Source of the DNA: Thermocrinis minervae
Lineage (GTDB): Bacteria > Aquificota > Aquificia > Aquificales > Aquificaceae
Direction: 5' to 3'
DNA: 64,000 nt
Assembly (NCBI RefSeq): GCF_900142435.1
Contig: NZ_LT670846.1
Coordinates: 958,750 to 1,022,749, forward strand
In this document: piece by piece, positions 24,381 through 24,403 of the stretch
Layout: the number at the start of each line of letters is the position of its first letter
How positions within the stretch are numbered: the first letter of the stretch is position 1
Made by a program: the position numbers and the translations under genes
Notes under the pieces: generated by a model
Seen by the model: only the letters and a program-made list of their open reading frames with translations
The model's database searches: none
What the model was told of the DNA's origin: nothing

Positions 24381-24387
24381 CAAAGTT

Positions 24388-24395
24388 ATTATAAT
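24388..24395. promoter_or_regulatory. Palindromic -10 shared by alaS and glgP
   Basis: ATTATAAT is its own reverse complement and supplies TATAAT on the plus strand (24390-24395, 8 bases before glgP ATG) and on the minus strand (24388-24393, 7 bases before alaS ATG). The -35 regions are weak on both sides. Both mRNAs would be leaderless. Confidence 0.6.
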
Positions 24396-24403
24396 AGGCT
24401 AAA

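Follow-up and report, generated by a model that had tools for sequence, protein, structure and literature searches.

In the window (the whole 64,000-nucleotide stretch of Thermocrinis minervae DNA that was analysed), alaS and a glgP-type phosphorylase gene are transcribed away from each other across an intergenic gap of 23 bp. Read directly, this gap is CAAAGTTATTATAATAGGCTAAA, and together with the two start codons, as CAT-CAAAGTTATTATAATAGGCTAAA-ATG, it spans positions 24378-24406 (Table 1). A sequence-only reading had taken the neighbours to be alaS and the first gene of a glycogen operon, and these identities were upheld by TIGR00344 and TIGR02094, with the GH57 protein and glgA (TIGR02095) following downstream of glgP. 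Among the named matches listed, the closest alaS relatives belong to Thermocrinis, to Hydrogenobacter and to other MAGs of the Aquificaceae, with protein identities that are mostly 65-70%.

Table 1 Genes and promoter elements at the alaS/glgP locus, in window coordinates.
Feature	Position	Strand	Evidence and remarks
alaS, alanine--tRNA ligase, 862 aa from ATG	21792..24380	-	TIGR00344, 994.5 bits (cut-off 457)
glgP-type alpha-glucan phosphorylase, 670 aa	24404..26416	+	TIGR02094, 765 bits (cut-off 192); PF00343, PF11897
GH57 family protein, second gene of probable glycogen operon	26413..27705	+	PF03065; 4-nt overlap with glgP
glgA, glycogen synthase, third gene of probable operon	27680..29056	+	TIGR02095, ORF list
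10-bp perfect palindrome TATTATAATA, proposed shared -10 element	24387..24396	both	Direct reading
-10 hexamer TATAAT, glgP	24390..24395	+	First T at -14 from ATG 24404, 8 nt spacer; direct reading
-10 hexamer TATAAT, alaS	24393-24388	-	First T at -13 from ATG 24380, 7 nt spacer; direct reading
Possible -35 TTAAGA (4/6), alaS direction	24412..24417	-	18-nt spacer, inside glgP codons; consensus scan
Expected place of glgP -35	24366..24373	+	Inside alaS codons; at most 2/6 to TTGACA, spacers 16-18

The start codons of alaS and glgP are roughly supported by relatives. Because an in-frame TTG (24383) immediately precedes the alaS ATG, the list of open reading frames puts the start of this gene one codon earlier, and TTG 24383 is a possible alternative to ATG 24380. 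In 12 of 31 relatives an ATG aligns with that at 24380; the other 19 begin one or two codons earlier. The three closest relatives of glgP begin 2-3 codons earlier. Elsewhere in the window, positions 18555-19580 hold a CRISPR-like array with 16 copies of a CTTTCAACTCCACCAGGAAGATTAGAAAC repeat, the first of them degenerate, spaced 65-69 bp from start to start.

Direct reading of the gap confirmed the earlier observation that TATAAT stands on both strands, 7 nt before the ATG of alaS and 8 nt before that of glgP, and the two hexamers overlap by 4 bp within one element. The palindrome formed by this overlap had been given as 8 bp long; it is indeed present, but the perfect palindrome measures 10 bp, with ATTATAAT (24388-24395) as its core 8-mer. 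By itself the word ATTATAAT is unremarkable: the window holds it three times against 0.75 expected, and three or more copies appeared in 6 of 100 shuffles. The two-way arrangement at start codons is not unremarkable. Of 200,000 shuffles of the 23-mer, 297 set TATAAT 6-9 nt ahead of each start, and among the 119 places with CAT-N23-ATG in 464 kb of the T. minervae genome, only alaS/glgP has a two-way TATAAT. A genome-wide search with ATTATAATN{5,11}ATG returned 15 matches, against 2 with the reversed control pattern, and among these matches the alaS/glgP palindrome alone was matched on both strands. On the minus strand, window positions 15469-15487 (G000:C1:974218-974236) contain a further exact ATTATAAT, one-sided and with an ATG 8 nt after it.

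Other initiation signals were sought around the element. For the glgP direction, direct reading and a consensus scan at the locus recognised no -35, and the scan found no other plus-strand promoter-like site between 24000 and 24403. A TG extended -10 is missing on both strands at the locus by direct reading. None of the Shine-Dalgarno words GGAG, GAGG, AGGA or AAGG starts at -14..-10 of alaS or glgP; an AGG at 24396-24398 lies just 5 nt from the glgP ATG. The bases preceding the two ATGs (-1) are G and A. Rfam at gathering thresholds gave no RNA element at the locus and one tRNA only in the window.

We then compared the two boxes with the starts of 447 genes, called with our own simple caller without motif information in the window and 20 further stretches of the T. 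minervae genome (464 kb). Exact TATAAT peaks at -16..-12 from the start codon, with 44 genes in the peak against about one per position further upstream; position -14 is the mode (17 genes) and -13 comes second (9 genes). The glgP box (-14) and the alaS box (-13) both fall inside this peak. Shine-Dalgarno words in the same genes peak at -14..-10. With one mismatch allowed, 100 TATAAT matches were found in 99 genes, against 14.3 expected from the flanks. These 99 leaderless-like genes differ from the other 348 at their starts: A at -1 is rarer (6% versus 16%), C at -2 is commoner (47% versus 23%) and GTG starts are in excess (17 of 99 versus 22 of 348). The -2/-1 bias and the GTG excess suggest that transcription begins with the start codon's first base. 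Pyrimidines before the start are typical of the class, so that the G and A at alaS/glgP are atypical, and a -35-like signal is weak across the class as a whole.

The same signal was looked for in relatives, grouped as families f1-f3, f1 being the family of T. minervae, whose name we infer to be Aquificaceae, and the two f3 genomes sampled belonging to the same order. Five other f1 samples gave 16-25 matches per 92-105 genes, against 3.3-7.2 expected. The -16..-12 peak was missing in two f3 samples (2 matches per 96 and 0 per 90 genes) and in E. coli samples (0 per 109 genes).

Each half of the arrangement also appears to have leaderless counterparts in other neighbourhoods within the family. 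We compared 31 alaS relatives with at least 55% identity and the start codon in reach; in 23 of them a -10-like box (at least 5/6 matches) precedes the start by 5-11 nt, and in no case is glgP the neighbour. The remaining eight fail this close-box test, and six of the eight have TATAAT 12-14 nt before the ATG, making short leaders possible there. The three closest glgP relatives (60-63% identity) carry TAAAAT 6-7 nt before the ATG; a fourth, from an f3 genome with 51% identity, lacks a box this close to the start. Whether the alaS/glgP pair itself is conserved was unusable as a test, as the pair occurs in none of the relatives examined: none of 80 named alaS loci matched glgP (flanks up to 4 kb, some shorter), and among the glgP loci compared only that of T. 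minervae matched alaS (flanks of about 1.5 kb, some shorter). At one alaS locus of an Aquificaceae MAG (L020), a divergent ORF begins 23 bp from alaS with a GATAAT box; this may be an independent two-way promoter that alaS shares with a different gene.

To place the 23-bp gap among others in the family, divergent pairs were called with our own simple gene caller in samples of six f1 genomes (964 kb). There were 134 such pairs, 54 of which have gaps of 0-62 bp, and 23 of these gaps measure 16-24 bp, a clustering with P of about 4e-7 if the 54 gaps were evenly distributed. A two-way box test, lenient in that it accepts 4/6 matches with A2 and T6, or 5/6, at 5-10 nt before the start, found -10-like boxes both ways in 20 of the 23 gaps, alaS/glgP counted, versus 6.6 from composition shuffles (P about 1.6e-9). 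Full TATAAT both ways was seen at alaS/glgP alone among the 23. Interlocked boxes of the TAAAATTTTA type are frequent where the gap measures 17-20 bp; the gaps of 21-24 bp form a more varied group, with ATTATAAT included. Two f3 samples had 0 of 19 divergent gaps at 16-24 bp (Fisher P 0.036, a small sample). In annotated E. coli stretches (150 kb), a by-eye count gave 0 of 20 divergent pairs with gaps of 16-24 bp, the smallest being 38 bp; our own caller found 16 divergent pairs in E. coli, again with 38 bp as the smallest gap. Thermus pTT27 had too few short divergent gaps for a comparison. The window itself contains another very short divergent gap, of 17 bp, at 41452-41474 (CATTTAATATATTTAATACTATG), which is AT-rich and near-symmetrical and passed the box test in one direction only.

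The exact palindrome was followed across the family by defining a two-sided site as ATTATAAT with an ATG 6-9 nt away on both strands. Counted by eye, such sites make up 55 of 375 distinct palindromes, alaS/glgP included, in 35 of 37 f1 genomes (the set without G024 and G031), versus 9 of 108 in 13 of 17 f3 genomes (the set without G040, G052, G059 and G060); family f2 lay outside the sample. We judged this rate a weak test and therefore used an ORF test instead, in which each ATG had to begin a reading frame that has 80 codons or more, or that reaches the end of the stretch. This was passed by 38 of the 54 f1 sites of relatives versus 0 of the 9 f3 sites (Fisher P 9e-5). The 16 failures comprise five small genes, one site cut by a contig end and ten that look one-sided; the five small-gene cases are Pfam-supported on representatives (PurS, SmpB/AtpI-like). 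The Pfam scan took one representative of each of 25 distinct gene pairs, 23 of them from passing sites and two from failures. At 1e-5 it matched 46 of the 50 proteins and both sides of 22 of the 25 pairs, one match lying below Pfam's own cut-off. A search for the other box type, TAAAATTTTAN{2,6}ATG, found two-sided sites in f1 and one in the f3 genome G040, among the matches listed. The two-way leaderless arrangement, as predicted from these sites, thus appears to recur in the family.

Besides alaS in the window, aminoacyl-tRNA synthetase genes stand at exact-palindrome two-way sites in 5 of the 25 representative pairs (L173, L179, L220, L221, L225); by Pfam they are aspS-like (with two different partners), serS, hisS and gltX-like. 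In another genome, a distant glgP-type phosphorylase is likewise placed at an exact two-way ATTATAAT, there with a gene for SAICAR synthetase as its partner (L178, G008:C1:1148330-1149730).

Sequence conservation was compared at sites found through the exact palindrome. At the acrB/hlyD pair of genus g5, a set complete for the g5 genomes compared, the palindrome is identical in 5 of 5 genomes while pairwise spacer identity is 51% (62/122 positions). The rimI/nfeD pair keeps the palindrome in 3 of 5 g5 genomes. Three pairs of genus g2 have it in 4 of 4 genomes; their spacers are 86-100% identical, so these pairs say little. More generally, the palindrome-spacer comparison is uninformative for close genomes, since spacers are 96-100% identical in four of the nine sets. 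A PdxA/ThiF-family divergent pair (L182, L195, L198, L201) has an exact palindromic -10 common to all four g2 genomes compared.

On this evidence, the alaS/glgP gap is probably a bidirectional promoter in which one palindromic -10 would serve both genes and both messages would be leaderless or nearly so. The proposal that a single -10 serves alaS and glgP gains from the genome-wide class, the boxes of relatives and the recurrence across the family, all of which point to a shared two-way box. That both mRNAs are leaderless needs a more open wording: the class-wide bias at -2/-1 supports starts at the start codon, but given the G and A at -1 we predict leaders of 0-3 nt.

One rival is a one-way promoter. 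TATAAT would then drive alaS only, as a leaderless gene, glgP would be transcribed from within alaS or from some other place, and its TATAAT on the plus strand would be a by-product of a near-self-complementary consensus. The -35-like hexamer in the alaS direction only, the leaderless-type alaS promoter in 23 of 31 relatives and the ten of 54 two-sided palindromes that look one-sided at gene level all speak for it. We nevertheless consider it unlikely: the plus box sits at the modal leaderless spacing before a gene whose -14..-10 zone holds no Shine-Dalgarno word, a -10-like box likewise precedes the ATG by 6-7 nt in the three closest relatives of glgP, and the scan of 24000-24403 offers glgP no other plus-strand promoter-like site.

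That the palindrome is an operator, for AlaRS autoregulation or another dimeric repressor, instead of or besides a two-way -10, is scarcely credible. AlaRS autoregulates alaS in E. coli, and a 10-bp perfect palindrome beside a tRNA synthetase gene would suit such a role; however, across the family this 8-bp palindrome is found in the gaps of many unrelated pairs, and throughout the genome the placing of TATAAT follows the start codons. It is also very improbable that two independent promoters merely overlap, abutting through genome compactness and neither sharing nor excluding in any meaningful way. The single-contig genome measures just 1.37 Mb, and two 6-bp -10 boxes need no special selection for symmetry to have 4 bp in common, yet divergent gaps cluster at 16-24 bp with boxes both ways. 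A 4-bp overlap should moreover bar simultaneous opening, so that sharing would follow from the geometry; exclusion of this kind is stated in the accessible text of PMC12825309.

In the shared-promoter reading that we prefer, a housekeeping-sigma polymerase would bind and open the -10 in either of two orientations, one starting the alaS mRNA and the other the glgP-GH57-glgA mRNA, each at, or no more than about 3 nt from, the start codon. The start separation predicted from the box and start-codon positions is 21-24 bp. Since the -10 hexamers have 4 bp in common, binding in one orientation should prevent binding in the other, consistent with what is available of PMC12825309. Nothing else fits in the 23-bp gap, so any -35 contact would lie inside the other gene's coding sequence, and since the alaS direction alone has a -35-like hexamer, that direction is predicted to be the stronger. 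Competition would be slight unless one direction is activated. For alaS/glgP we infer transcription both ways, the exact starts and mutually exclusive occupancy.

A wider proposal is quite possible, if tentative: in Aquificaceae the two-way leaderless -10 may be a usual device, favoured by selection, by which genes are joined head to head, and in which polymerase geometry would set the 16-24 bp gap (perhaps in two modes) and exclusive binding would tie the pairs together. At alaS/glgP it would couple protein-synthesis capacity to carbon storage. Because the start codons of leaderless mRNAs mark transcription starts, promoter geometry becomes readable from DNA alone. A family-wide set of 16-24 bp gaps would let sequence evolution test the two-way promoter model, and would show compact genomes pairing unrelated genes on almost no regulatory DNA.

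Both components have precedents. At bidirectional promoters (Warman et al. 2021, as presented in PMC12825309), polymerase can start on either strand owing to the symmetry of the -10, and the accessible text of PMC12825309 gives start separations of 10, 18 and 23 bp as common in E. coli; PMC10268837, in its available part, gives 7-25 bp as the window for start separation. The alaS/glgP element resembles these promoters in its symmetric -10 and in its predicted separation of 21-24 bp, which lies inside that window; the match between family gap sizes and the E. coli separations of 10, 18 and 23 bp is suggestive only. According to the same text of PMC12825309, opposing polymerases at E. coli bidirectional promoters sterically exclude each other, basal activity was too low for competition at 5 of 5 promoters tested, and interference arises when one direction is substantially activated. 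The bidirectional promoters of E. coli and Salmonella are, in the accessible accounts, defined by mapped starts, whereas alaS/glgP is known from its sequence.

Genes with a TANNNT box shortly upstream of the start codon, described as TA-led leaderless genes by Zheng et al. 2011 (PMC3160421), are the other precedent. In the portion of that paper available, the signal was found in 2 of 5 Aquificae genomes, at 20.7% and 32.4% of genes, figures with which the leaderless-like class of T. minervae agrees, and Aquifex aeolicus is one of its four example genomes. As at alaS and glgP, the -10 box of TA-led genes immediately precedes the start codon; it is centred around -12 in that survey, whereas the mode in T. 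minervae is -14, and there they are treated singly, whereas alaS and glgP are two divergent genes on one box. RNA-seq of Aquifex aeolicus, from the same family (Lechner et al. 2014, PMC4227106), found very high transcription in overlapping 5' upstream regions on opposing strands. The available text of that study leaves open whether these head-to-head transcripts are real or artefacts and does not tie them to a shared -10 or to leaderless starts; a two-way leaderless -10 may explain them. The literature searched, with most subscription journals outside it, yielded no description of leaderless genes combined with a bidirectional or divergent promoter. Compared with these known systems, alaS/glgP has both products predicted leaderless, start codons 23 bp apart and a gap without other regulatory DNA. 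Leaderless genes have been described, as have bidirectional promoters with a shared -10; both at once is the new part, and with both features at once the spacing of the gene starts would reflect the geometry of the polymerase.
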